Positions 10,523 to 25,028 of a DNA stretch of 30,867 nt are shown here, piece after piece. The stretch is taken from IMG/VR virus record IMGVR_UViG_3300042555_000197, positions 1-30,867 of that record. One strand, 5' to 3'. The DNA comes from a virus. The notes beneath the pieces were generated by a model. It ran no database searches. It was not told the DNA's origin and worked only from the letters and a program-made list of their open reading frames with translations. The position numbers were made by a program, and so were the translations under genes. How positions within the stretch are numbered: position 1 is the first letter of the stretch; every line of letters starts with the position of its first letter.

Positions 10523-11062
10523 ATGAAAGAAGCATCCTCTTCTACCGACACCGCTGTCACAAGCTTCGTCGGCAACAACGCGATTGTTGATTCAATCGAA
10601 GCTCCGTACTTCACTTACGACATTCAGTGCGTTGGCGAAGACGGCCAAGAAAAGTGGCGAGAGAACTTTCGCAACCTCGTGACTAATGTCGGCAGGACGT
10701 TTCTCCTGAATGTCGTCTTTGGCTCGACCGCAAAGCCCGCCGGCGGCTGGTTCTTGGGAATGATCAGCACCCTCGGCGCAAACCCAAATGCGACCGACAC
10801 GCTTGCGTCTAAGGGGTGGACTGAGTCAACCGCCTACACCGGCAATCGAAAAGCAATCACGTTCGGCACCGCATCTGCCGGATCGATTACGCACACCGCA
10901 GTTTCGTTCGGCATCACGGCTACGGACACCATCAACGGGTGCTTTGTGTGTGACGCTGCCTCTGGCACTTCGGGCACGTTGTATTCGGCTGGGACTTTTA
11001 CTGCCCGCGCAGTGGGAAACAACGACACGCTGAACATCACCGTCACGTTGACGATCTCCTAA
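10523..11062 (+). CDS. Phage structural protein, 'NLVTNVG' family
   Basis: A 179-residue protein whose N-terminal third contains YDIQCVGEDGQEKWRENFRN followed by LVTNVGRTFLLNVVF, a pattern common in phage tail-region proteins of unknown function. The rest is Thr/Ala/Gly-rich with alternating beta strands (KAITFGTASAGSITHTAVSF). Likely a virion decoration or tail protein from its place among structural genes. A clear GGAG ribosome site is at 10513-10516. No catalytic motif is visible. Confidence 0.68.
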   Translation: MKEASSSTDTAVTSFVGNNAIVDSIEAPYFTYDIQCVGEDGQEKWRENFRNLVTNVGRTFLLNVVFGSTAKPAGGWFLGMISTLGANPNATDTLASKGWTESTAYTGNRKAITFGTASAGSITHTAVSFGITATDTINGCFVCDAASGTSGTLYSAGTFTARAVGNNDTLNITVTLTIS

Positions 11063-11072
11063 GGAGTAACAG

Positions 11073-11504
11073 ATGAGCCTTCGTACTGAACTCCTCGACG
11101 ATCCCCTGAATCGCGGCTACGCGGCATTCATTGCCGACTCGCCCGGCGTTCTCGCGGACATGATGAACGACCGCATTTACTCGATGGTCAAAGAGAAGTT
11201 TGTCAACGCACGCGGTGTGCTGGCTGCTCACGGGTCTGCTGGCGGTGACATCATCGAGGCGCTCAACAACGCCTCTGGATCGAACGTCACGATCAAGTGG
11301 GCGATGAAGTTCGTCTCGCAAGACAGCGGTATCGATGTCGGACATCCGAATACGCAAGCTCTGTTAGACGCCGTTGTGCCTGCTGTGCTGACTCAAGCTC
11401 AAGCCGACCTCATCAAAGGTATGGCGCTTCAACCCGCCAGTCGCGCTGAAGTCCTCGGTCTGGGCTACGTTTTTGCACACGACGTTCAGGCTGCTCTTGC
11501 CTGA
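11073..11504 (+). CDS. Conserved phage protein, structural module
   Basis: A 143-residue protein starting SLRTELLDDPLNRGYAAF, a start I recognise from small proteins in phage tail modules. The remainder is helical (DMMNDRIYSMVKEKFVNARG, then LLDAVVPAVLTQAQADLIKG) and ends in SRAEVLGLGYVFAHDVQAAL. Function is not established; structural or tail-assembly role inferred from neighbours. Ribosome site AAGGAG precedes the ATG. Its stop overlaps the lipoprotein start at 11504 (TGATG), so the two are probably translated together. Confidence 0.68.
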   Translation: MSLRTELLDDPLNRGYAAFIADSPGVLADMMNDRIYSMVKEKFVNARGVLAAHGSAGGDIIEALNNASGSNVTIKWAMKFVSQDSGIDVGHPNTQALLDAVVPAVLTQAQADLIKGMALQPASRAEVLGLGYVFAHDVQAALA

Positions 11505-11656
11505 TGAACCCGTGGGTTGCTCTTTGGATTCTGGCGATGTGGCTGATGCTGTTCGGTTGCAGTGATCCAGAACAGCCGCTCCAGATCGAAGAGAAGCCCG
11601 TCAAAGTCACTGAGAAACCGGCGCTGATCAAGCGGGCCGATCTCCCTAGCAATTGA
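11504..11656 (+). CDS. Small lipoprotein within the tail module
   Basis: A 50-residue protein. Residues 1-18 form a hydrophobic Trp/Leu/Met-rich signal peptide, and L16-F17-G18-C19 fits a signal peptidase II lipobox, giving a mature lipoprotein of about 32 residues. The mature part is Pro/Glu/Lys-rich (SDPEQPLQIEEKPVKV), much like short outer-membrane spanins (Rz1 type). It is translationally coupled (TGATG) to the gene before it. Candidate roles are o-spanin, or a superinfection-blocking lipoprotein (T5 Llp-like); the distance from the lysis cassette makes the second worth considering. Phe at -2 is less usual in a lipobox. Confidence 0.72.
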   Translation: MNPWVALWILAMWLMLFGCSDPEQPLQIEEKPVKVTEKPALIKRADLPSN

Positions 11657-11665
11657 GAGAACCAA

Positions 11666-12118
11666 ATGGCAGACATTAAGTCTCATGTACAAACAGCAGC
11701 GGCGCTTACCGTAACAGGTCTCGCGACATTGACTAACGGGTCGTATGTCACCTCTGCCGAGATCAATCACGCAACAAACGACCCGCTTGATGTGCTGATT
11801 GACGTTGCGATTACTGGTGGTGTGACGACAGGAAATCAGCAGTGTGTGGTCTTTGCTGTTGGCTCGATTGACGGGACCAATTTTGGCAAGACCGTCAGTG
11901 ACTCTGGACTGACCTCCGCTGACGAAGCCGAGATGCATTTTGTCGGCACCCTTCCGATGGTTGCTGACAGTGCCGCGCACCGTAAGATTTTCTCGCTGGC
12001 TGCGGCTTACGGTGGAATTCTGCCCGTTAAGAGCAAGCTGGTATTTAGGAACGACAGCGGCGCGACATTCACTGCTGGTGCCGTTCAGATTGCAGAGGTC
12101 TGGGGCGTGGCGATCTGA
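11666..12118 (+). CDS. Small beta-rich structural protein
   Basis: A 150-residue protein, Thr/Ala/Gly-rich, beginning ADIKSHVQTAAALTVTGLAT and ending FTAGAVQIAEVWGVAI. The alternating beta pattern, including LDVLIDVAITGGVTTGNQQC and SKLVFRNDSGATFTAGAV, suggests a jelly-roll or Ig-like domain. I recognise the type from phage structural modules but no named family. It lies directly before the LamG fibre genes (stop three bases from the next start), so a tail or fibre anchor role is plausible. A weak GAGAG ribosome site precedes the ATG. Confidence 0.6.
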   Translation: MADIKSHVQTAAALTVTGLATLTNGSYVTSAEINHATNDPLDVLIDVAITGGVTTGNQQCVVFAVGSIDGTNFGKTVSDSGLTSADEAEMHFVGTLPMVADSAAHRKIFSLAAAYGGILPVKSKLVFRNDSGATFTAGAVQIAEVWGVAI

Positions 12119-12121
12119 GCA

Positions 12122-12922
12122 ATGGCTCAGTTTTTATCCCGTCGCTGGAGGCGTCAGCCTCAAGGCGTGGTTTTAGTTGACTGGAGCAATCCGCTTGCTC
12201 GCGGTCTAGACCACGTCATTCTGATCAACAACGCTGGCGCTCAGAATCCGGCAAAACCGAGATTTCGGCCAGTTCGAAGTTCTACCTTCACTTTGGGCGG
12301 CGGTTCTGAGGGGTTTGGTGCCGCATGTAACGGAACCGCTGGAGATATATCTCTTGTCAACACCGGGGGCGCTGGCTACGCGCATTTTAGTTTTGCGGCG
12401 GCTGGCTTCAATCATGTTGGCACGGCATTTACATACCCTGCTGGCACGACAGTATTTGCTTGCGGGAGCCATCGCGTCTTTAAGCCAGATTACAACAACT
12501 GGAACGTACTTTCGTACACAGCAACCTCTTCAAATTTTGAGTATCCCGGCGACCAGCGCCCCGCAGTAGACATTTCAGGCTTGCTTCAAAAACGCATCAC
12601 GATGGGGGTTACGTTCGGACCAACTGGCAATAATAAATTTTATGTCAACGGATCCTTAAAAGACTCCGACCCGAGAGCGGTAACCGCTGGATTAAGGAAT
12701 GTTGGACTCCATTTGTCAATTACGTCTAGAACGGGACTCACGCTTCCACTAGCAGCAGCTTGGGCAAGGCCGCTATCTGACTCCGAGTTTCTTGCATTTC
12801 ACGAGAACCCGTGGCAACTCTTTGCCCCACAAAAGTCGATGACGGTCTTCCTGTCGAACACATTCTCGTATTCTCGCCCGATTGCTGACCTGAGCAATTC
12901 CGGCTGGGTGAGGGTGCCGTGA
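12122..12922 (+). CDS. LamG/ConA-like lectin module protein, probable fibre part
   Basis: A 266-residue protein consisting of one LamG/concanavalin-like beta-sandwich module. It starts with RRWRRQPQG (residues 7-15), then LVDWSNPLARGLDHVILIN, a Gly/Phe-rich sandwich, VGVTF-type strands around KFYVNGSLKDSD, and a C-terminal signature AAWARPLSDSEFLAFHENPW ending in QLFAPQ. The 'W-x-R-x-L-S-D-x-E ... NPWQ-[IL]-F' ending is typical of phage LamG modules. Such domains bind glycans, so a receptor-binding or virion-decoration role is likely. The next gene carries three more copies of this module. Stop overlaps the next GTG start. Confidence 0.78.
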   Translation: MAQFLSRRWRRQPQGVVLVDWSNPLARGLDHVILINNAGAQNPAKPRFRPVRSSTFTLGGGSEGFGAACNGTAGDISLVNTGGAGYAHFSFAAAGFNHVGTAFTYPAGTTVFACGSHRVFKPDYNNWNVLSYTATSSNFEYPGDQRPAVDISGLLQKRITMGVTFGPTGNNKFYVNGSLKDSDPRAVTAGLRNVGLHLSITSRTGLTLPLAAAWARPLSDSEFLAFHENPWQLFAPQKSMTVFLSNTFSYSRPIADLSNSGWVRVP

Positions 12923-15525
12923 GCGTATTTCTTCGTCAGCGTTGGAGGCAGCAACCGCAAGGTGCCGTGTCTTTTGACACAAGCAGCGCACTTGCACAAG
13001 CCATTGGCCTTGACACTGCGTGGAGCGGCACAAACCCAAGAATGCGGTTTAGCGTTCGCGGCGGACTTCAACAAAATACCATCAATAATTTCGATGGACT
13101 GTCCGTTAGGTCTGGTCGGTATGCCCCAAATTCGTCTACTGGGGCAGTGTTAACGGCAGCGAATAATCCTGACATTGATCTTGGCGCGATGCCAAGCATG
13201 ACCGAGCTTACTTATATCGCCGTTCTTTCTCAAGGCGCGACGGTAAATTCGTTTCCGTTTAGCTCTCGCGTAGGTACTGGGTTTGAGCTTTTGACTGGTA
13301 ATACGAGTGGCGTAGGTAACGCATTTATACGGATAACAACTACCACTGTTCAATCAGAAGCAGGTCTTGGTGGCCTAAACGATAATTTTACGCATACATA
13401 TTTCGGAACGTGGAAAACAGGATTCGGCACGCGCATTTATGTTGATAGGCCTACTAACTCGGGCACTGGTGCGGCGGCTGGCGGCACATTAACTAGCGGG
13501 CAAAACTTAAAAATAGGGACTCGCTCTACAACTAGGTGGACTGGTTTCATTAGCCTCCTTCTTGTTGGTACCAAGCAAAACATTGACGCAGGCCTTGCGC
13601 TCCTAGAAAACCCGTGGCAAATCTTTAAGCCCCAGCAGGCTGTCTTTTATTCGCTGCCCGGCGGAAACCTATTCTCCGCGCTCGACGAAACCGTCAGCGA
13701 CCGCAACGACTACATCCTTTCGTCAACTGCTGGTCAGGTTTACCAGACGACCCTGTCTCCTGTCGCACAACCCGGCGCGGGCACGAATATCGATTTCAAC
13801 TTCGATGCTGAATCACCAGAAGATTCTGGGTCGATAAAGTTTGATCTGCTGAGTGGGCCGACGACAGTTAAATCGCAAACTGTGCCGCTCGCAAGAAATT
13901 GGGCCGGCAGGATTCGCTCGCCTCAGTTGCGTAAGCAGCCGCAGGGGAATGCACAAATCGACCCTAGAGTTGATCTTGTGTGGACTCCGTCGCAGTCATT
14001 AGGGTGGACTCGTGGGGCAAACGGCGCTATTAAATATGGGAGAAATGGCGCAGCGTGGAACGTAGCAGCATCATCAAGCGCATTTTTATCTACGGCTAAT
14101 ACCGCAAAATCGGCAGCGATAACACTTATCGCGGTCGTAAAGTTTAATTCGCTTACCGCAACAACCTTCAGTGGCTCCTCGACTGATAATGGCGCTGTAA
14201 TTTACTCACAGCGTACTCTTGATGTTGACAATAGCCCAACTCTTTGCGTAAGCGGCAGCTTTACGGGCGGCCCAATGCGCGTCTGGTTTGGCAGAGATAC
14301 ATCCGGAGTGGCATTTGGTAAAGCAAACACACTTGTAACAATTCAAACTGGAGTCTGGTATTCAATCGCAGTTAGTTGTGATGTTAATGGTGTTACTGGA
14401 ATTGTTGTGAATGGGTTGTCCAACGCAACTCAAGTTTCAGTTGCGGGATCTTGGTCAGCAGGATGGAGCGGCGCAACCGCTTATGTCGGTACACAGCGGC
14501 TGTGGCCTGCTGCCGCAAACGACGACGCGAACATAGAAGTATCGCTGTTTGCGAGAATCCCGCAAAACATACGCGAGAGCGAGCTAGTCTCGCTGTCTAA
14601 CAACCCGTGGCAAATCTTCCGACCACCATCACGCGCAGTCTGTTTCCCGAGTCCTGCTCAGACCAGTTTCCCGATCACGCCATCCGATTATTCGGTAATC
14701 GATACACCGAGATACGGGCGGTTCCTGCCGAAGCGTTGGCGTCAACAGCCGCAGGGCGCTGCACAGGTTAATTGGAGCAATCAGCTAACTCGCGGCCTGC
14801 GCGTAGCCCTGCATCCAATCGGCTCTCGGTTTTACGATGTAACAAATTACAAAGCAGCCGCTCACTATCTAAACACTTCAATAGTTGCATCACCAAGCGG
14901 GGTGGGATTAAACGGCATTGGAGTAACTGCTGACGGCGGCGTGGCGTCTCAGTTCTATACTTTCTTTCCTGCTTCCGCATCCTATGTTGTATGCGGGTTC
15001 TCTGTGGACCCGTATTGGCACGGCATCAGTTACGTCAGTCATTCTTTAGGCGGTTTTGCGACTGGGCCAAATAGCTCACAATTCGGCGTAGCAACAGATG
15101 CTTATTCGACGGGCCGGACAGTATCGTTCCGACTCATGACTCAGAACTCTGATGGTGGCGGGTCAATAAGCTTTACAAACCTTCTGGAGCGAGGAAAGCC
15201 TTTTGTTTACGGAGCCACTCGTGTAACAGGGGCTAATGGGCACCGAGTGTTTTCTGCGGGTCGTTTATTGGGGTCAGCAGACGGCGGAACGGGTGGAATT
15301 GGACCATACGGTGGGACGGTAGACGCAGGGAACGCAGCCTATTACGGGTCAGGTAACACCATCCTAATGGTGGCCTATTGGGAGCGTGCACTTTCCGATG
15401 CGGAGATGGTGTCGGTTACGTCGGAACCGTGGCAGATATTCAGACCTAACCCCGGCAGGATTTATGGACTGCCCGCCGCTGGCGGCTGGCCGTGGACTCC
15501 GACGCTGCGAGTTACTTCGCTTTGA
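12919..15525 (+). CDS. Triple LamG-module fibre protein
   Basis: An 868-residue protein made of three tandem copies of the module seen in the gene before it. Copy 1 spans residues ~6-245 (QRWRQQPQG start, ENPWQIFKP end at ~230). Copy 2 spans ~331-577 (LRKQPQG start, NNPWQIFRP at ~560). Copy 3 spans ~604-850 (KRWRQQPQG start, EPWQIFRP at ~835). Residues ~250-330 are a distinct linker with an acidic beta-like stretch (NIDFNFDAESPEDSGSIKF). GTG start overlaps the upstream stop. The base composition is more AT-rich than the capsid region. Glycan recognition is inferred from the fold; trimerisation or chaperone signals are not visible. Confidence 0.78.
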   Translation: MSVFLRQRWRQQPQGAVSFDTSSALAQAIGLDTAWSGTNPRMRFSVRGGLQQNTINNFDGLSVRSGRYAPNSSTGAVLTAANNPDIDLGAMPSMTELTYIAVLSQGATVNSFPFSSRVGTGFELLTGNTSGVGNAFIRITTTTVQSEAGLGGLNDNFTHTYFGTWKTGFGTRIYVDRPTNSGTGAAAGGTLTSGQNLKIGTRSTTRWTGFISLLLVGTKQNIDAGLALLENPWQIFKPQQAVFYSLPGGNLFSALDETVSDRNDYILSSTAGQVYQTTLSPVAQPGAGTNIDFNFDAESPEDSGSIKFDLLSGPTTVKSQTVPLARNWAGRIRSPQLRKQPQGNAQIDPRVDLVWTPSQSLGWTRGANGAIKYGRNGAAWNVAASSSAFLSTANTAKSAAITLIAVVKFNSLTATTFSGSSTDNGAVIYSQRTLDVDNSPTLCVSGSFTGGPMRVWFGRDTSGVAFGKANTLVTIQTGVWYSIAVSCDVNGVTGIVVNGLSNATQVSVAGSWSAGWSGATAYVGTQRLWPAAANDDANIEVSLFARIPQNIRESELVSLSNNPWQIFRPPSRAVCFPSPAQTSFPITPSDYSVIDTPRYGRFLPKRWRQQPQGAAQVNWSNQLTRGLRVALHPIGSRFYDVTNYKAAAHYLNTSIVASPSGVGLNGIGVTADGGVASQFYTFFPASASYVVCGFSVDPYWHGISYVSHSLGGFATGPNSSQFGVATDAYSTGRTVSFRLMTQNSDGGGSISFTNLLERGKPFVYGATRVTGANGHRVFSAGRLLGSADGGTGGIGPYGGTVDAGNAAYYGSGNTILMVAYWERALSDAEMVSVTSEPWQIFRPNPGRIYGLPAAGGWPWTPTLRVTSL

Positions 15526-15526
15526 A

Positions 15527-15676
15527 ATGCCGCCAAAATGGGAAACCGTATTCGTCACATTATTCAGCGGCGCTGGTGTGCTGGCCCGATGGGATGGCGA
15601 GCAATGGTGGATGGCCGAGCGGCCAGATATTCCCATTGCGAATCAGCACGTGATTAACTGGCGAACGGTCAACTAA
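15527..15676 (+). CDS. 49-residue Trp-rich small protein
   Basis: A short ORF starting at ATG 15527, right after the fibre stop, and ending at the ATG of the repeat protein. It contains VLARWDGEQWWMAERPDIP and ends HVINWRTVN. The 'W-D-G-x-x-W-W ... W' pattern is faintly like DUF551-type small phage proteins, but this is not secure. It could be a fibre-associated small protein. An upstream in-frame ATG at 15386 lies inside the fibre gene and is unlikely to be used. Its placement exactly between two genes, with no spare bases, argues that it is real. Confidence 0.6.
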   Translation: MPPKWETVFVTLFSGAGVLARWDGEQWWMAERPDIPIANQHVINWRTVN

Positions 15677-16993
15677 ATGGCAATCAGGCTTTATTGGGTT
15701 GAGCTAAAGTCCTCTTCGACGGTATCGTCGGGGGCGACCTATACTGCTTCGCTTACTGAAAGCGCGACCAGTGGGGACAGTCGTGCCAGCGTACTGACCG
15801 CAGCACTAAGTGCAACCGAGTCTGCAACCTCTGGCGACTCTTCGGCCGCGTCAAGGACGTTTGCATCCTCCGCAACCGAGTCGGCAACTGCTGGTGATTC
15901 TTCGTCAGGCAGTCCGGCGTATTCAGCGACTGCCACCGAGTCCTCAACGTCGGCAGATTCCGCATCGACTCAGATCACTGCAAGCCGTTCTGCAACCGAG
16001 CCTGCGACATCTGGAGATTCGCTTAGCGCAGCGGGTACATTCGCCTCTTCTGCAACCGAATCGGCTACGTCTGGCGACTCCAACTCGCCCGCTGCAAGCT
16101 ATCCACGCACGATCACTGAGAGCGCGACATCCGGTGATTTTTCGGCGATTACTGGGACATTCTCCGCAAGCGTAACTGAGCCTGCTTCTGCTGCCGAGTC
16201 TGTTGCCGTTACACAGTTTTCGGATACAGCCAAATTTGTTCAGGAGTCCGCCAGCGCAGCGGATTCGGTCTCGACCCAGATTAACGCCAGCAGTAGTCGA
16301 ACCGAACCGGCTACTGCAACAGACAGCGCGGCTACTGCGCTAAGTAGAGCAGTCAGTCTCACCGACAACGCAACATCGTCTGACTCCAGTGCGGCCAACG
16401 CCACGTTTGCGCGGTCGCTTACTGAGTCTGGTACTGCGACCGACTCCACTGCCAACAGCGGGACATTTAGTGCAAGCCTCAGTGAGGCAGCGACTGCAAC
16501 AGAAGAGCAAGTCGGTACTAAGGGCGAGGCACTTACTGAGTCTTCCTCTGCCGGAGATTCAGCGTCCGTAACGGCCATCTACGCTCGTTCGCTAACTGAC
16601 TCGGCAACGTCGGCTGACACCAGACAAACGACTGCCGTATTCGTATCCGCTGCTCAGGAGTCTGCGGCGTCTGCTAGTACTGAATCTTCAAGAGCGATCT
16701 TTGTTGGCACTCGCATCGAGACCGCAACCGCATCCGATTCCCCTTTGGGGCTGCGTCTTATTGCACTGTCGACCATTGAGTCCACAACCGCTGCAAGCTT
16801 TGAAGCGGCAAACGCACTACGACAAGCGGAGTTCATCGAGGACGTAGTGCTTAGGACTACGGTCCAGCAAGCAATCCTCACTGCTTACTTTACGGAACCT
16901 GTTCTTACGGCGTCTGCATCTCAAATCGTTATGACTGTCTCGGTCAACGATGCGGAAGCGGATTTAACAACCATTGCGATTGCGGTCGGATGA
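15677..16993 (+). CDS. Ser/Thr/Ala-rich 20-residue-repeat fibre protein
   Basis: A 438-residue protein. After a 22-residue lead (MAIRLYWVELKSSS...) it consists of eighteen tandem units of about 20 residues with the consensus 'T-E-S-A-T-S-x-D-S-x-x-x-x-x-T-F/A-x-S-x', of which a good example is ALSATESATSGDSSAASRTF. The last ~57 residues (from LRQAEFIEDVV) are not repetitive and are beta-rich. Regular acidic E and D positions about seven residues apart suggest a fibrous beta structure or a calcium-binding rod. It is placed after the LamG fibres, so a long tail-fibre or appendage shaft is likely. No catalytic motif. The stop is one base before the next gene. Confidence 0.75.
   Translation: MAIRLYWVELKSSSTVSSGATYTASLTESATSGDSRASVLTAALSATESATSGDSSAASRTFASSATESATAGDSSSGSPAYSATATESSTSADSASTQITASRSATEPATSGDSLSAAGTFASSATESATSGDSNSPAASYPRTITESATSGDFSAITGTFSASVTEPASAAESVAVTQFSDTAKFVQESASAADSVSTQINASSSRTEPATATDSAATALSRAVSLTDNATSSDSSAANATFARSLTESGTATDSTANSGTFSASLSEAATATEEQVGTKGEALTESSSAGDSASVTAIYARSLTDSATSADTRQTTAVFVSAAQESAASASTESSRAIFVGTRIETATASDSPLGLRLIALSTIESTTAASFEAANALRQAEFIEDVVLRTTVQQAILTAYFTEPVLTASASQIVMTVSVNDAEADLTTIAIAVG
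15743..16819 (+). repeat. Tandem ~60-bp coding repeats (18 units)
   Basis: DNA basis of the 20-residue repeats in the gene above: units of 60 bp, with some 57- or 69-bp variants at units 8, 9, 13, 14 and 17. Conserved cores read like GCAACCGAGTCGGCAAC followed by GGNGAYTC. The units have diverged in codon use, so the array is old rather than freshly duplicated. It is coding, not CRISPR. Confidence 0.85.
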
Positions 16994-16994
16994 T

Positions 16995-17264
16995 ATGGAA
17001 TTTGGGATTGAAGACTTTCGCAGGCTCGAAAGCAAAGTAGACAAGCTGGCCGACGCGGTTCAACGACTCGTGCTGATTGAAGAGCGCCAGTCAACGATGG
17101 GCGAGCGCATCGTCATTGTCGAAGAGCGCGTTCGTAGCAATGAAGACGCGATCCAAAAGGTCTCCGTGAAGTTGGAGAAGTGGATTAATCGGTGGATCGG
17201 TGTGTGCGGCGTGATCGCAATCCTGTACTCAGTCTTTGAGGTCATTCTGAAGGTACTCAAATGA
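16995..17264 (+). CDS. Coiled-coil protein with C-terminal membrane anchor (XhlA-like)
   Basis: An 89-residue protein starting MEFGIEDFRRLESKVDKL. Residues ~8-65 form a charged coiled coil (LADAVQRLVLIEERQSTMGE, then ERVRSNEDAIQKVSVKLEKW). Residues ~67-88 (RWIGVCGVIAILYSVFEVI) form a single transmembrane helix. This layout is like XhlA-type proteins, which often sit beside endolysin and holin genes and assist lysis. ATG 16995 is preferred over an in-frame ATG at 16974, which lies inside the upstream gene. The ATGA overlap with the endolysin gene places it in the lysis cassette. An i-spanin normally has the anchor at the N-terminus, so it does not fit simply. Confidence 0.72.
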   Translation: MEFGIEDFRRLESKVDKLADAVQRLVLIEERQSTMGERIVIVEERVRSNEDAIQKVSVKLEKWINRWIGVCGVIAILYSVFEVILKVLK

Positions 17265-17731
17265 ATTATGACCGCGCGTTTGAAATCATCATCGGCGAGG
17301 AAGGTGGCTACGTTGATGACCCTCGAGATCCGGGTGGCCGCACTAAGTATGGGATTTCACAGCGGGCTTACCCCAATGAAGATATCAAAGCGATGACGCT
17401 GGACCGCGCTCGCTTCCTCTACAAGCGGGATTATTGGGACGTTATGAAGGGCGACCAGCTGCCGTGGGCTTGGGCGATTGCGACGTTCGACTGCGCAGTC
17501 AATCAAGGCGTCTCTGTATCTACAAAGTTCCTTCAGGACGCGCTGGGTGTGATGGTCGATGGCGTTATCGGGCCGCGCACGATCAAAGCCGCTCAAACAG
17601 CGGATGACAGAAAGCTCGCACGATTTTTTGCTTTGAGGGCGATCCGCTACTCAAACTTGTCTACCTACAATACGTTTGGGTATGGGTGGATGACCAGACT
17701 GTTCGTGGTCTCAATCAATTCACAGGAGTGA
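17261..17731 (+). CDS. Endolysin, GH108-type N-acetylmuramidase
   Basis: A 156-residue cell-wall hydrolase expected to cut the glycan backbone of peptidoglycan at lysis. The N-terminal motif EEGGYVDDPRDPGGRTKYGI, followed by SQRAY, is the GH108 signature; E14 is the likely catalytic glutamate. The centre (PWAWAIATFDCAVNQGVSVS, then KFLQDALGVMVDGVIGPRTI) matches the end of the catalytic core plus a short PG-binding-like part. There is no signal peptide, so it needs the holin for release. ATGA overlap upstream; the holin follows five bases after the stop. Length is typical for single-domain GH108 enzymes (150-180). Confidence 0.9.
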   Translation: MNYDRAFEIIIGEEGGYVDDPRDPGGRTKYGISQRAYPNEDIKAMTLDRARFLYKRDYWDVMKGDQLPWAWAIATFDCAVNQGVSVSTKFLQDALGVMVDGVIGPRTIKAAQTADDRKLARFFALRAIRYSNLSTYNTFGYGWMTRLFVVSINSQE

Positions 17732-19264: not shown

Positions 19265-20928
19265 CGGCAATCGCTATCAAGTCCTTTGACGGCATGTATC
19301 CGGTTATGAACAGCCGGCTGCTGAAAGACAACGCCGCTCAGACGTCGACGAATACCAAGATCACTGGCGGCTCTCTGAAGCCGTTCAAAGCTTCGACAAC
19401 GATCGTAGCAAAGCGGTCTGCTGGCAATCCCGTCTCGATCTATCGATTCGGGCAGGGCGAGACGGTTGAAACCCAGTACTGGCTTGAGTTCACCTCAGAT
19501 GCAGACGTTGTTCGCGGACCTGTTGCGGGCGACATTTACGAGAGGACGTACTACACCGTCAACGGGCAAGAGCCGAGGATGACCACCTCGACTTTAGTGC
19601 CCGGCGCTGGGACGTATCCGAACGGCTACTACCGGCTCGGGGTTGAGCCTCCCGCCACGAGTGCCACTGTAGCTGCAACTGGGTCGGGTACAGACACCGT
19701 CGCCGAGCAGAGGTACTACACCTACACGTTCGTCACTCCGCTCGGCGAGGAAGGCCCGCCGGCTACCGTCTCCAGCGTCTCAGTTCTTACTGGGCAGTCT
19801 GTTGCGATCTCTGGCATGTCAACGGCCCCTGTAAAGTCCAACCGTACGGTTGACCGCAAGCGGATCTACAGGACGGTCAGCGGAACCAACGCAACTGACT
19901 TCCAGTTCGTCGCGGAAATCGCGGCTGCAACGACTTCGTTTACGGACAACAAGACATCGGGCCAGCTGGGCGAGATCATTCCGAGTGACGGGTGGTATCC
20001 GCCTCGCAATGCAACGGATAACGAGCCCGGCACGAACGGTCCGTCTCCGTACACGATGTACGGCCTGACGCTGATGGCGAACGGAATTATGGCCGGTTAT
20101 GCGGGGAACATAATTTGTTTCTCAGAGCCGTACATGCCTCATGCGTGGAAGCGCGAGAACGAGTTGGTATCCGACTACCAGATCGTCGCGACAAAGGCTT
20201 TTGGTCAGTCTTTGGCGGTTCTGACGGCTGCATACCCGTACCTGATTCAGGGTGCCGACCCGTCATCGATGTCGATGACCCGCCTCGATGAGCTACATGC
20301 CTGCGTCTCGAAGCGCTCCGCAGTGACGATGAACAACGGGGTGGTCTACGCCAGCCCCGATGGACTCGCTCAGATCAGCGGTGGCGGTGTACAGCTGTTG
20401 ACTAAGGGGCTGTTCACGAAAGAAGAGTGGCAGGCCTACAAGCCCTCTTCGATCCACGCTTACCAATACGACGGTCGGTACTTTGCCTTCTATAACACCG
20501 GCACAGTGACCGGATGTCTGGTCTTCAGCTTCAACGGGCAAGAGCCGGCTCTGGTGACGTTGAATCTGACTGCGACGGCCGGATACCTCGAGCCGTTGAC
20601 GGACTCTCTGTATCTGCTCGTTGGCAGCAATATCGTGAAGTTCGATACAGGGTCAGCATTGACCTACACGTGGAAGAGCAAGCGGTTCACTTTGCCAAAG
20701 CCAGAGACGTTTGGTGTCGGACAGATCGTTGCGAAGTCTTACCCAGTAAGTCTGACGTTCTCCACGTACGACACCGACACCACGTACACGCTGTCTGTGA
20801 CTTCAGCCAATTCGTTCAGGCTGCCTTCGGGGAAGAAGTACAACTCAGTTGAGATACAAGTGTCTGGGACAGCAGAGGTCGAGCAGATCCTGCTGACAGG
20901 CTCGATGGATGAGATGAAACAGCTGTGA
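19261..20928 (+). CDS. Tail nozzle or hub protein
   Basis: A 555-residue beta-rich protein. The N-terminus (FDGMYPVMNSRLLKDNAAQT, then TNTKITGGSLKPFKA) matches the start of large podovirus tail proteins that form the nozzle/hub below the adaptor, similar in role to T7 gp12 or P22 gp10. Later parts include an Ig/FN3-like region (YYTYTFVTPLGEEGPPATVS), several repeated propeller-like strands, and MTRLDELHACVSKRSAVTMN. The last third has repeated 'L-x-G-x-x-x-x-Y-x-W' type strands (FDTGSALTYTWKSKRFTL). ATGA overlaps the phosphoesterase gene; GTGA overlaps the next. Family and role are inferred from length, order and pattern. Confidence 0.72.
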   Translation: MTAIAIKSFDGMYPVMNSRLLKDNAAQTSTNTKITGGSLKPFKASTTIVAKRSAGNPVSIYRFGQGETVETQYWLEFTSDADVVRGPVAGDIYERTYYTVNGQEPRMTTSTLVPGAGTYPNGYYRLGVEPPATSATVAATGSGTDTVAEQRYYTYTFVTPLGEEGPPATVSSVSVLTGQSVAISGMSTAPVKSNRTVDRKRIYRTVSGTNATDFQFVAEIAAATTSFTDNKTSGQLGEIIPSDGWYPPRNATDNEPGTNGPSPYTMYGLTLMANGIMAGYAGNIICFSEPYMPHAWKRENELVSDYQIVATKAFGQSLAVLTAAYPYLIQGADPSSMSMTRLDELHACVSKRSAVTMNNGVVYASPDGLAQISGGGVQLLTKGLFTKEEWQAYKPSSIHAYQYDGRYFAFYNTGTVTGCLVFSFNGQEPALVTLNLTATAGYLEPLTDSLYLLVGSNIVKFDTGSALTYTWKSKRFTLPKPETFGVGQIVAKSYPVSLTFSTYDTDTTYTLSVTSANSFRLPSGKKYNSVEIQVSGTAEVEQILLTGSMDEMKQL

Positions 20929-23900
20929 GTACACCCAACATCAACAGCCCCGAGACGAAAGTCCCGTCTCTGCCGACTCCTCAGTCGCCTGAAAAGCTGA
21001 TGGCGGCTCTCAAGGAACTCATTGAGGTCAGAGAGGGGATTCGAGGCAACGAGCTTGATGCCAACGTCACGTGGCGTGAGTTGGTCAACTCCGGCATTGC
21101 GAACATCACATACAACGGTCAGTCGTCTTCTGGTTCGGGGGGGCTGCCGTTTGGTCCCAGCGCAAATGCCGATGAAGAAAACCTGACGCCGCCACCGCAG
21201 CCGCAGAACCTTCAGGCCACCGCTGCGGTACAGAACATCATCCTATCGTGGAATGATCCTAACAGCCCTCTCGTTGCTGTTTCTGAGGTGTGGAGATCAT
21301 CGACGAACGTAGCGCCGGGCTTCTCCGGATCAACAGCTGTTTTGGTTGGCACTACTGAGGCATTTCTTTATGCCGACAATGTTGGCCCCGGCAGTGGGGT
21401 GCGGTACTACTGGGTTCGATTCAGGAGTAAGTGGGATGTCGCTGGCCCATATAGCAGCGGGGCGAACGCTCAGACTCAGGCGTCTGTCGAGTATCTGCTT
21501 CAGACCCTGACTGGGCAGATCACTGAGTCGCAGCTGTACTCGACTCTCGGCTCACGCATCAACCTGATCGATGCTCCGAGTTCTGTTGCTGGGTCTGTCG
21601 CCTCAAAGGTTTTGGATCTCCAGAACCAGATCAACGATATCTCGAACATTCCTGCGTACAGCGCATCCGTAACTTATGAGCTTGACCAACAGGTCACCTA
21701 CAACGGATCGCTGTATAGAGCTAAAGGGACGACGACAGGAAATCTGCCCACCAATACCACCTACTGGACGCTGATCGGGAATTACACGTCGCTCGGTGCT
21801 GCTGTAGCGGATCACACTACACAGATCGGCAACCTTACGACTGGTCTTGCCACTGAGGTTACCGATCGAACGACTCTGGCTACGCAACTCAGGGGCGGAT
21901 ACACAGGAACGGACCTTAGCCAGCTGACGACGGGCCTGCTTTACTCAGAGCGTCAGGCGCGCTCGACAGGCGATGCGGCATCCGCTACTCGGTTGGATGT
22001 TCTTGAGTCTTCAGTCAATAACGGGACGACTGGACTTTCGGCGACCAGAGCCCTGCTGATTAACGAGTACGCGACCAATGCGAACCTGACCTCAGCGACA
22101 GGGTCTTTGCAAACAACCCTGACCGCCTCTTATCAGGCGGCTGACAATGCGGTCCTGAGCAATGCGCAGAACTACGTCAGCAGCTACGCATACGCCAAAG
22201 CTTCGACCTATACGCAGTCTGAAGCTAATACGGCGATATCCAATCAAATCTCGACCGTCTCTGCTCGCCTCAACTCTGGCGGCGACATCTCAACGGCCAT
22301 TAACAACGTCTCGAACACCGCTTCAGCAAAGAGCGCGAACTTTGTGCAGGGGACTGCCCCGACAGCGACTAAGACAGACGACCTGTGGATCGATACTGCT
22401 AACGGCAACATCCTGAAACGGTGGAACGGCAATGCGTGGGTCGCCGCTGACGATACGAGGATCGGCGCGACAGCAACTAGCGTTCAGACGCTTCAATCTT
22501 CTGTCGATGCAACAACCTCGTACCGGATCGACGCTAGAGGGTACTCGGCACCACAAACAACTGCTGGCGTTTACAACGCTGCGGGCACTCGACTCTATAC
22601 GCCAGTAACGGGGTGGGCTGTTCTGGTTCTGAATCGAACAACGGCGGCCGTCGTCTCGCATAACACTTACAACACGTACTCAAGCTCGGCCAACGCTACT
22701 GCGATGGCCACTGCCCTCGATGCGCTCGGCACAGATCGCGTGGTGGTCTGCTATACCTACGATGAACCAAGAACAAACGTCTTCAACAACTCGACACTGA
22801 TCACTGCTCTTGAGCGATGCGGCGCTACTTCTGCGGCGATTGCCAACATTAAGCATCGCGGGGCATACATTTTGGCTGGCATCCCCGGCCGTGGCGCTGG
22901 CACTGGATACGAGAAGTACGCGGGGGCTTTCTCCAGCGACCCGGCTGCGTTTGTCACGTACACGCTCCAGCTTGTCAAAGGCGAACCAGTAGGGCTGGGT
23001 ACTACGGGGACGGTTGCTCTTGAGATCAGGGCCGATACTCAAGCGAGTTCGATCACGGGCCTTCAGGGCCAATACACCGTCAAGATCGATACTGCCGGAC
23101 ACGTATCTGGCTTTGGTCTGGCATCCACTCTCAACGGTGCCACGCCGACAAGCGCGTTCGGTGTCCGAGCCAACCAATTCTTTCTGGCACCGCCTTCCGT
23201 ATCTCAAACCACAGCGCCGACGACGAACCTGTACAAAGGATATGTCTGGGTCGACACAAGCTCGACGCCGGTCACTAAGTACTGGGATGGGTCCGCGTGG
23301 ACGACCGTTCCTACGGCGCTTCCGTTTGTTGTTCAGACGACCCCGACCACAATCAACGGAGTGTCAGTCCCGGCTGGTGTCTATATGGACACCGCCTACA
23401 TCAAGAACGGAACAATCTCGACTGCGCAGATCGGTAACGCTGCAATCGACTCGGCGAAGATTGCTGACCTCGCTGTGGTTGAGGCAAAGATCGGCGCATT
23501 GGCTGTCACCAACGCAAAGATCGGCGGGTTCATACAGTCTGACAACTACTCTGCCGGTGTCTCTGGCTGGAAGATTGCAAAGGACGGTGGCGCTGAGTTC
23601 GGGTTCGCAAACATTCGAGGAACTCTGGCCGCAAGCCAGATCGTTGCCGGCTCAATTACGGCTGACAAGATCGACACCAAAGGCCTGTCGATCAAAGACA
23701 CGGCCGGCAATACGATCCTTTCCGCCGGAACGTCACTCGCGAATAGCACGCTGAACCTACCCGCCACAATCGGCGGCAACATCCCGGCTGGATGGCTTAA
23801 CTCTAACGTCTCGCTCTCGACGCTGGGGTACACGGGCGCAACCAACGCCACGCGCAACGCTGTGAGCTATGGGGCGACGACTCCGTCCTCGCCTGTTGCG

Positions 23901-25028
23901 GGCGATATCTGGATCAGGACCGATCTCAACCCAGTGAAGGTCGGGGTGTACAACGGCTCCGCGTGGGTGGATGCCGGCAACGTAACGACGAACACGAGCC
24001 AGCTAACTGACGGTGCGAATCTAGGTCAGACCGCTGCGTGGGGAAGCGTTAGTAGTAGGCCCGCGAATCTCTCTGGTCTGGCCGGCACCGAGAACATTCA
24101 GAACTCTCAGATCATTATCTCTGGCGGTCAGATTCAGGGGATCGGCACTGGGAACAACACCGCCGTTGCGAATTCCTCGATAGCCATATCTGGGACGAAC
24201 GGGACGATCACGATGACTGGCGGGCCGACTGGCTCGGTGACCGGCGTAATCATGCCGGGCTACCAGATAACTGCGGCTAATGTTGGAACCTATCTCGCGT
24301 CTGCTGCGATTGGCGAGGCGTACATAGGCAACCTGAGTGCGGGCAAGATCACCACGGGCACGCTCGACGCAGCACGTATTGCCTCAGGTTCTATCGATGC
24401 CTCAAAGATTGACTCGCGTGGGCTGTCGATTAAAGACGCAAGCGGCAATGTGATTCTTGCCGCTGGCACCGCGCTGAACTGGTCGAACGTGACCGGACAG
24501 CCATCCGGTATTTACAACTCAAACATTACCCTGAGCGAGTCGTCTGGAAACGTCTCGTTAAATAACGCTGGCGGCGGATCGTTCGTTGCTGTCACGACAA
24601 ACAACAAGATCACATCCAGCAACATCTCGACGTATATATCTAACCTTGCAGTAAACACGCTTCAGATTGCTGGCAGGGCAGTAACAATCCCCGTTGGCAA
24701 TCAGGGCAACACGGATTTATATGTCACGGTCGAAAATGCAGAGGCATACCAACCGATTATTATAACTGCTTCATTTTCCTCTGTTGCCGCAACCTCTCAG
24801 ACCGTTACAGGATATATTTATGTCGGGAGTACGGCTGTTGTTGGGCACAACAGCACTGGGTTCCCGTACGGCAATGATGGGAATGGCGGGCCGGCTGGCT
24901 TTTATTGCAATGGGATCTCGGTAAGTTATATCCATACGCCGTCTTCTAGCGGCAACATAACCTTTAGTGCGAGGCACACTGCTGGAGCGGTCCCCGCGAC
25001 AATCTTTGCAATACAGGGCAAAAGATGA
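20925..25028 (+). CDS. Tail-tip/fibre protein (host specificity) with FN3 and ILEI-like domains
   Basis: A 1367-residue protein. Order: an FN3-like domain at residues ~89-184 (PQNLQATAAVQNIILSWNDP); a carbohydrate-binding-like stretch ~245-290 (YSASVTYELDQQVTYNGSLY, with YW later); helical coiled-coil-like repeats; an ILEI/FAM3-like domain ~533-688 (GWAVLVLNRTTAAVVSHNTY, VVVCYTYDEPRTN, CGATSAAI, HRGAYILAGIPGRG); and a C-terminal part with two GLSIKD blocks (~920 and ~1166) as in phage tail-tip J-type proteins (DUF1983-like). Three 'W-[IV]-[DR]-T ... NGSAW' motifs occur (~488, ~775, ~996). The domains imply adsorption and receptor recognition. GTG start is set by the GTGA overlap. The last ~150 residues are encoded in AT-richer DNA. 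Confidence 0.8.
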   Translation: MSTPNINSPETKVPSLPTPQSPEKLMAALKELIEVREGIRGNELDANVTWRELVNSGIANITYNGQSSSGSGGLPFGPSANADEENLTPPPQPQNLQATAAVQNIILSWNDPNSPLVAVSEVWRSSTNVAPGFSGSTAVLVGTTEAFLYADNVGPGSGVRYYWVRFRSKWDVAGPYSSGANAQTQASVEYLLQTLTGQITESQLYSTLGSRINLIDAPSSVAGSVASKVLDLQNQINDISNIPAYSASVTYELDQQVTYNGSLYRAKGTTTGNLPTNTTYWTLIGNYTSLGAAVADHTTQIGNLTTGLATEVTDRTTLATQLRGGYTGTDLSQLTTGLLYSERQARSTGDAASATRLDVLESSVNNGTTGLSATRALLINEYATNANLTSATGSLQTTLTASYQAADNAVLSNAQNYVSSYAYAKASTYTQSEANTAISNQISTVSARLNSGGDISTAINNVSNTASAKSANFVQGTAPTATKTDDLWIDTANGNILKRWNGNAWVAADDTRIGATATSVQTLQSSVDATTSYRIDARGYSAPQTTAGVYNAAGTRLYTPVTGWAVLVLNRTTAAVVSHNTYNTYSSSANATAMATALDALGTDRVVVCYTYDEPRTNVFNNSTLITALERCGATSAAIANIKHRGAYILAGIPGRGAGTGYEKYAGAFSSDPAAFVTYTLQLVKGEPVGLGTTGTVALEIRADTQASSITGLQGQYTVKIDTAGHVSGFGLASTLNGATPTSAFGVRANQFFLAPPSVSQTTAPTTNLYKGYVWVDTSSTPVTKYWDGSAWTTVPTALPFVVQTTPTTINGVSVPAGVYMDTAYIKNGTISTAQIGNAAIDSAKIADLAVVEAKIGALAVTNAKIGGFIQSDNYSAGVSGWKIAKDGGAEFGFANIRGTLAASQIVAGSITADKIDTKGLSIKDTAGNTILSAGTSLANSTLNLPATIGGNIPAGWLNSNVSLSTLGYTGATNATRNAVSYGATTPSSPVAGDIWIRTDLNPVKVGVYNGSAWVDAGNVTTNTSQLTDGANLGQTAAWGSVSSRPANLSGLAGTENIQNSQIIISGGQIQGIGTGNNTAVANSSIAISGTNGTITMTGGPTGSVTGVIMPGYQITAANVGTYLASAAIGEAYIGNLSAGKITTGTLDAARIASGSIDASKIDSRGLSIKDASGNVILAAGTALNWSNVTGQPSGIYNSNITLSESSGNVSLNNAGGGSFVAVTTNNKITSSNISTYISNLAVNTLQIAGRAVTIPVGNQGNTDLYVTVENAEAYQPIIITASFSSVAATSQTVTGYIYVGSTAVVGHNSTGFPYGNDGNGGPAGFYCNGISVSYIHTPSSSGNITFSARHTAGAVPATIFAIQGKR

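Follow-up and report, generated by a model that had tools for sequence, protein, structure and literature searches.

Apparent exchange of LamG-like modules between phages at conserved joints of a putative virion adhesin cassette

The IMG/VR virus record IMGVR_UViG_3300042555_000197 (positions 1 to 30,867; this whole stretch of 30,867 nucleotides is called the window here) carries two adjoining genes which together encode four LamG-like modules, one alone in gene 1 (module M1) and three fused in gene 2 (M2, M3 and M4) (Table 1). The locus raises the question of whether these modules were copied in place, as an earlier note on this DNA had proposed, or came from other phages, and what the proteins may do. 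With moderate confidence, we favour the explanation that the locus is a swappable virion adhesin cassette, in which LamG modules are exchanged between phages at conserved joints, with two small conserved genes, g143 and g150, as partners.

The records compared with the window (L-numbers) included phages of different kinds. Two of them, L002 and L027, represent the phage of the window itself (DNA identity 99.9% and 100%). The genes that flank the array in the window recur in L010 and L012, most at 80-98% amino acid (aa) identity, and L006 is a more distant relative, with a major head protein at 53%. L003, L004, L009 and L011 are of a different phage type, in which the head and tail genes of the window found no tblastn match at E 1e-4. 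The type of L003, L004 and L011 has HK97-type TerL, portal, protease, major head protein, Ad1, Hc1 and neck genes, a set assembled piecewise from L004, L003 and L011. Judged by the families of its portal and connector, the window phage would be short-tailed; its contig is incomplete. Module DNA is nevertheless identical in phages with these different head genes.

DNA identity between the window and L003 was 72% in g143, 98% in the small open reading frame (ORF) that follows it, 68% in g150 and 100% in M1; within gene 2, it was 97% at the 5′ end of M2 and 53% in its middle, 98% in the linker domain and 100% in M3. Exact blocks of 815 bp (12098-12912) and 945 bp (13684-14628) were common to both, and the small ORF lay largely within another of 115 bp (11496-11610). 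Synonymous divergence (dS) was 0 in M1 (225 codons), 0 in M3 (227 codons) and 0.06 in the linker, but 1.3 in g143, 1.9 in g150 and 0.67 in M2. Similarly, dS between the window and L006 was 0.04 in M1, 1.47 in g150, 2.33 in M2 and 0.76 in the linker. The M1 body was identical in DNA to those of L003 and L004 and 97% identical to that of L006. A 1018-bp exact block shared with L004 spanned M1 and the start of M2; the M3 body of L004 was unrelated to that of the window (33% aa identity), with a similar end after M3 nonetheless. In L011 the bodies differed at all three positions and the joints kept 80-90% DNA identity. The linker was 90-91% identical in amino acids to those of L004, L006 and L011, and 64-66% to those of L010 and L012. 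Since L003, L004, L011 and L006 differ in their bodies while the joints stay similar, bodies appear to be replaced and joints to persist. In L010 (6763-7992) and L012 (4426-5637), a different two-domain protein of 404-410 aa takes the place of gene 1 from the start codon on, keeping the same last residues (SNSGWVRVP).

Four related modules, one single and three fused, had been proposed in the earlier note, and the reading frames, the positions of the conserved ends and the pairwise alignments all agree with this. Both ORFs are open, the start of gene 2 overlapping the stop of gene 1. Each module has about 240 residues, opening with QPQG (residue 12 in gene 1; residues 12, 340 and 610 in gene 2) and closing with PWQ[IL]F (residue 230 in gene 1; residues 232, 563 and 837 in gene 2). 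Five of the six module pairs were 22-26% identical over their full length (E 1e-4 to 1e-15, in a five-sequence set), and M1 and M3 could be aligned only piecewise (best 40 aa, 6.6e-4). With a profile built from M1-M4, modules were matched in many other phages, where they stand singly or in pairs. The signature given in that note, RWRxQPQG and NPWQ[IL]F, holds for six of the eight ends; it is slightly too strict, because M3 opens with RSPQLRKQPQG and M4 closes with SEPWQIF. The linker domain between M2 and M3 had been overlooked. Tandem Repeats Finder returned no row within 11000-17300, and promoter and terminator scans gave results at chance level only.

The number of modules differs between relatives: the window has 1 + 3 modules, versus 1 + 2 in L003, L004, L010, L011 and L012, so that copy number is not fixed. 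Among 99 distinct cassettes, counted where at least 4 kb lay downstream and with any base difference near the anchor making a separate cassette, modules numbered 0 (4 cassettes), 1 (76), 2 (6), 3 (7), 4 (3) or 5 (3). The sequence around the ITPSxYSxI seam suggests how the third fused module was gained. Gene 2 of L003, L004 and L011 ends after M3 with ITPSDYSVI-SSWPWTPTLKVTSL; L012 continues after its linker with ITPSEYSAI-DTPRVGRFLPQRWRKQPQG, then one module, then PNPGRLYGLAPAGGWPWSPTLRVTSL; and the window reads ITPSDYSVI-DTPRYGRFLPKRWRQQPQG, then M4, then PNPGRIYGLPAAGGWPWTPTLRVTSL. The seam thus stands after M3 in the L003-type allele and before the last module in L012, and the simplest account of the three-module gene would be a crossover at this seam between an L003-type and an L010/L012-type allele. 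Ongoing expansion and fusion, as suggested in the earlier note, is borne out as far as copy number changes; the expansion itself looks like the import of ready-made modules at seams.

Table 1. Coordinates of the array, its parts and the adjoining genes in the window
Feature	Position	Strand	Description
g143, partner gene 1	11073..11504	+	143 aa; conserved; no known family
Small ORF	11504..11656	+	About 50 aa; hydrophobic start, LFGC lipobox-like motif; between g143 and g150
g150, partner gene 2	11666..12118	+	150 aa; conserved; no known family; directly upstream of the LamG genes
Gene 1	12122..12922	+	266 aa; ATG start; single LamG module M1 and C-terminal tail
Gene 2	12919..15525	+	868 aa; GTG start; M2, linker, M3, M4 and C-terminal tail
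Module M2	12919..13626	+	73% aa identity to L003/L004; DNA near-identical at the 5′ end, 53% in the middle
Linker domain M2/M3	13627..13899	+	About 90 residues; conserved, putative exchange joint
Module M3	13900..14649	+	Mostly inside the 945-bp exact DNA block (13684-14628) common to L003 and L009
M3/M4 seam (FxITPSxYSxI)	14650..14718	+	L003-like up to SDYSVI; L012-like from DTPR on
Module M4	14719..15471	+	Closest to the final module of L010 (73% aa); used for the structure model
Gene 2 C-terminal tail GWPWTPTLRVTSL	15472..15525	+	Resembles the L012 tail
Ser/Thr/Ala-rich protein	15677..16993	+	438 aa; degenerate 20-aa repeats; adjoins the LamG genes

The fold of the modules was approached by profile and by structure prediction. 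An iterated profile gathered 111 unique modules from 74 loci, with 101 rows aligned, and Laminin_G_3 (PF13385) matched 45 of the 101 aligned modules (best 9.7e-19). In a targeted search M3 of the window matched this family at E 6.1e-5 with 17.6 bits, below the cut-off of 27.6; M4 had no PF13385 match in the profile comparison of the 101-module set, and full-library scans of Pfam and PHROGs recognised neither the gene 1 nor the gene 2 protein. A usable structure model was obtained for M4 only; that of M1, from a 15-row alignment, was discarded as poor (predicted local distance difference test score, pLDDT, 44.7). On the 101-row alignment, AlphaFold2 predicted M4 as a jelly-roll (pLDDT 74, predicted template modelling score 0.77). 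This model gave 334 Foldseek matches in the PDB at E ≤ 0.001 (best 1.6e-7), including sialidase lectin domains and a cyanopodophage tailspike, and Z scores of at least 8 for 763 of 999 chains (best 18.2); its BFVD matches are phage proteins annotated as concanavalin-like or LamG-like. The module profile matched 35 concanavalin-like PDB sequences at E ≤ 0.01 (best 5e-10, an S-layer protein), and arabinanase, sialidase and pentraxin domains were also among its matches. Clostridial neurotoxin binding domains and trypanosome sialidases head the fold lists, which we read as the common jelly-roll fold only. M4 is thus predicted to be a LamG/concanavalin-like two-sheet jelly-roll, and, together with the Laminin_G_3 matches across the family, the model supports the LamG-like nature first proposed from the letters alone.

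Outside the array, the modules are accompanied at many loci by g143 and g150. No usable family was found for either in PHROGs, Pfam, the PDB or INPHARED; in the PHROG and PDB searches, one of 11 g150 members matched a 'tail protein' at E 0.005. Of 86 module loci, 67 had an ORF like g143, g150 or both no more than 4 kb away from the LamG gene (52 with g143, 48 with g150, 33 with both). In the reverse search, with g143 and g150 alignments, a LamG ORF stood downstream of the anchor in 67 of 70 distinct loci, at ≤100 bp in 66, and both partner genes were present in 47; at least 2 kb downstream was required, and some contigs were re-fetches of earlier ones. As for the three exceptions, L265 gave a LamG module with filters off (E 9e-17), L204 appeared alike by eye and L205 is unexplained. 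In 37 more distant loci (L038-L074), found via a 555-aa virion protein of the window, g143 and g150 were absent from all and a weak module match occurred in one, and the cassette is therefore not a constant feature of that lineage. At other loci the genes beside it include one for a tail sheath (L104), HK97-type head genes (L004, L097) and a podovirus-like set of terminase, portal and head genes (L024). Scans of bacterial genomes with the 555-aa protein and with gene 2 found no relative, and tblastn of INPHARED with M1, gene 2, a module of L075, g143 and g150 gave no match, while an endolysin control matched 766 records.

The LamG genes are encoded among virion structural genes, and in the type of L003, L004 and L011 the cassette is flanked by the genes for the major head protein and the head-tail adaptor. 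This location, the predicted fold, the exchange between phages and the presence in the virion of a distant LamG protein, gp28 of Stenotrophomonas phage DLP3, make it likely that the LamG proteins are a virion adhesin with exchangeable lectin modules; by gene order, a head or neck position would be favoured. The 438-aa protein next to the array begins with RLYWxELKSS, as does a 493-aa repeat gene of L003 and L011. A low-complexity repeat protein also adjoins the LamG genes at L003:5630-7108, its repeat unlike that of the window. In L204 (2096-3868) and L265 (1245-2672), the LamG protein itself carries a fused repeat tail of comparable kind, suggestive of a stalk. The window also has a separate gene for a 1367-aa tail-fibre-like protein (20925-25028, plus strand), with Phage_Tail_Tip, ILEI and weak CBM_5_12 matches, which gives the phage another likely binding protein besides the LamG array.

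On the explanation we favour, LamG-fold modules would form a surface-exposed binding protein on the virion, with g143 and g150 as its probable dedicated partners, for assembly or for anchoring at the head or neck, and the modules may bind host or environmental glycans. Module bodies would be replaced by homologous recombination between phages that presumably co-infect a cell, the joints being the end of g150 with the start of M1, the end of M1 with the start of M2, the linker domain, and the ITPSxYSxI seam with the C-terminal tail. Out-of-register recombination at these joints would add or remove modules; the two-module allele of HK97-type phages, joined at the seam to a last module and tail of L010/L012 type, would yield three.

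Tandem duplication of one module in place, followed by rapid divergence, would account for the homology of all modules in the array, and tandem arrays do reach five modules. However, no close pair exists within the array, and the nearest relative of every window module is a module in another genome, at 73% aa identity for M2 and M4; in seven other multi-module loci, no two modules of one locus were more than 34% identical. Modules of the same genome do not cluster on a 20-row module tree either, where genome labels required 16 changes; shuffled labels required 14.6 on average, and no more than 16 in 199 of 200 shuffles. In this tree and the reduced ones below, M1 of the window had no row of its own, being identical to that of L003. 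With the seams removed (18 rows), genome labels required 12 changes against 13.2, as low in 45 of 200 shuffles. We consider duplication in place unlikely, and the modules look like ready-made imports at seams, though an ancient duplication behind the identity of about 25% is possible. Position in the array gave a different picture on the whole-module tree (4 changes against 11.7, as low in none of 200), but the grouping by slot vanished once seams and near-copies were removed (11 rows; 6 against 6.3, as low in 115 of 200), and we make no case for slot-specific bodies. Bodies may move between slots over long time scales, on trees of poor resolution.

Of the other explanations, the one with the best claim, possible though in our judgement doubtful, is that the LamG protein is a receptor-binding protein of the tail or baseplate instead of a head or neck adhesin, so that swapping would directly alter host range. 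The annotation of DLP3 gp28 is that of a tail protein, the fold matches of M4 include a cyanopodophage tailspike (9vyh_p, E 1.9e-6), in L104 the LamG gene is followed by the tail sheath gene, and cross-morphotype sharing is known for tail-fibre modules (PMC10579305). Against this stand the place of the cassette in L003, L004 and L011 and the window's own tail-fibre gene. That an assembler switched genomes at conserved seams is very improbable: seam DNA is similar, but the window arrangement recurs in two further contigs (L002 and L027), one with 12 substitutions in 11,580 bp; one join is common to L003, L004 and L007 although the M3 bodies of L003 and L004 differ; the M3-to-tail join of L003 is found again in L009, which carries another dataset number; and the mosaic L006 has an M1 with mutations of its own. 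Mutagenesis by a diversity-generating retroelement would also fit the presence of variable binding-type modules on a phage, but we find it scarcely credible: whole bodies are replaced and lengths change, in contrast to point changes at fixed sites, and a reverse transcriptase was found in none of nine records searched, which may be fragments. Some points do weigh against exchange of adhesin modules. The whole data set consists of metagenome contigs, several from neighbouring accession series, which would also suit an assembly artefact; L246 and L183, with contig names (2623620410, 2921275117) not in metagenome style, may presumably be isolate genomes, in which case they would provide a host for phages with g143 and g150. 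Body trees without seams and near-copies have no resolution. BLASTN alignments ended outside module bodies in 37 of 39 cases, bodies making up 69% of the array, but conserved seams beside fast bodies would also place ends there, so this count is weak alone and the synonymous pattern carries the argument. The association of g143 and g150 with LamG genes is biased upward, because the profile seeds were genes adjoining LamG. The virion position is drawn from gene order and from the distant DLP3 gp28, and LamG folds have many ligands.

More tentatively, and with the balance tipping against the proposal in its full breadth, g143, g150 and LamG could form an undescribed, widespread platform for adhesin display, with g143 and g150 as a universal adaptor for podo-, sipho- and myovirus-type phages, and interchangeable LamG lectins traded between unrelated phages and stacked out of register via standard joints (QPQG start, PWQ[IL]F end, linker and ITPSxYSxI seam). 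If the two are a shared adaptor, many uncultured phages would gain an annotated adhesin system, and the traded lectin pool would report which phages share hosts or habitats. At this locus, modules traded between phages whose head genes are unrelated are observed while synonymous divergence is still zero; the joints are legible to the base, and they offer a simple route by which modules may be gained.

Shuffled adhesin domains are an already known kind of phage variation. Literature searches, mainly outside subscription papers, found no prior description of the g143-g150-LamG cassette; what seems undescribed in that literature is a LamG module family with fixed joints, its partnership with g143 and g150, and out-of-register module gain. 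The nearest protein with virion evidence is DLP3 gp28, a LamG protein detected by mass spectrometry and, at 43.8%, the most divergent virion protein relative to phage DLP5 (PMC7326821). A search of this one sequence with our module profile gave a match at E 4e-10; however, its single LamG domain lacks the QPQG and PWQ[IL]F ends, and its annotated neighbours are tail genes. The tailspike of cyanopodophage Pan3 (PDB 9vyh) matches M4 in Foldseek (E 1.9e-6, template modelling score 0.55) but is only 11% identical to it. Modular Ig-like adhesins of gut phages are likewise surface modules whose sequence variation alters binding (PMC13370021); they differ in their Ig-like fold and in demonstrated epithelium binding.

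BACON-domain repeats of crAss-like and related gut phages are closer in arrangement, being tandem carbohydrate-binding-type domains, of which single ones move horizontally in two lineages and in which the region is similar while other genome parts are not (PMC6949934). The same holds for L003, L004 and L011 against the window, and, as in BACON arrays, window modules are closer to modules of other phages than to their neighbours in the array. The domain family is another one, and arrays of the crAssphage lineage grew by duplication and kept a stable order; unlike them, the window array has unrelated neighbouring bodies, conserved joints and g143 and g150 as companions. Alteromonas phages A5, V22 and P24 share a recognition gene set across podo-, myo- and siphoviral morphology, which consists of tail fibres with chaperones, 45-96% similar over ten syntenic genes of A5 and V22 (PMC10579305). 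Here, in contrast, whole modules are identical in DNA, and the cassette lies beside head genes in several phages.

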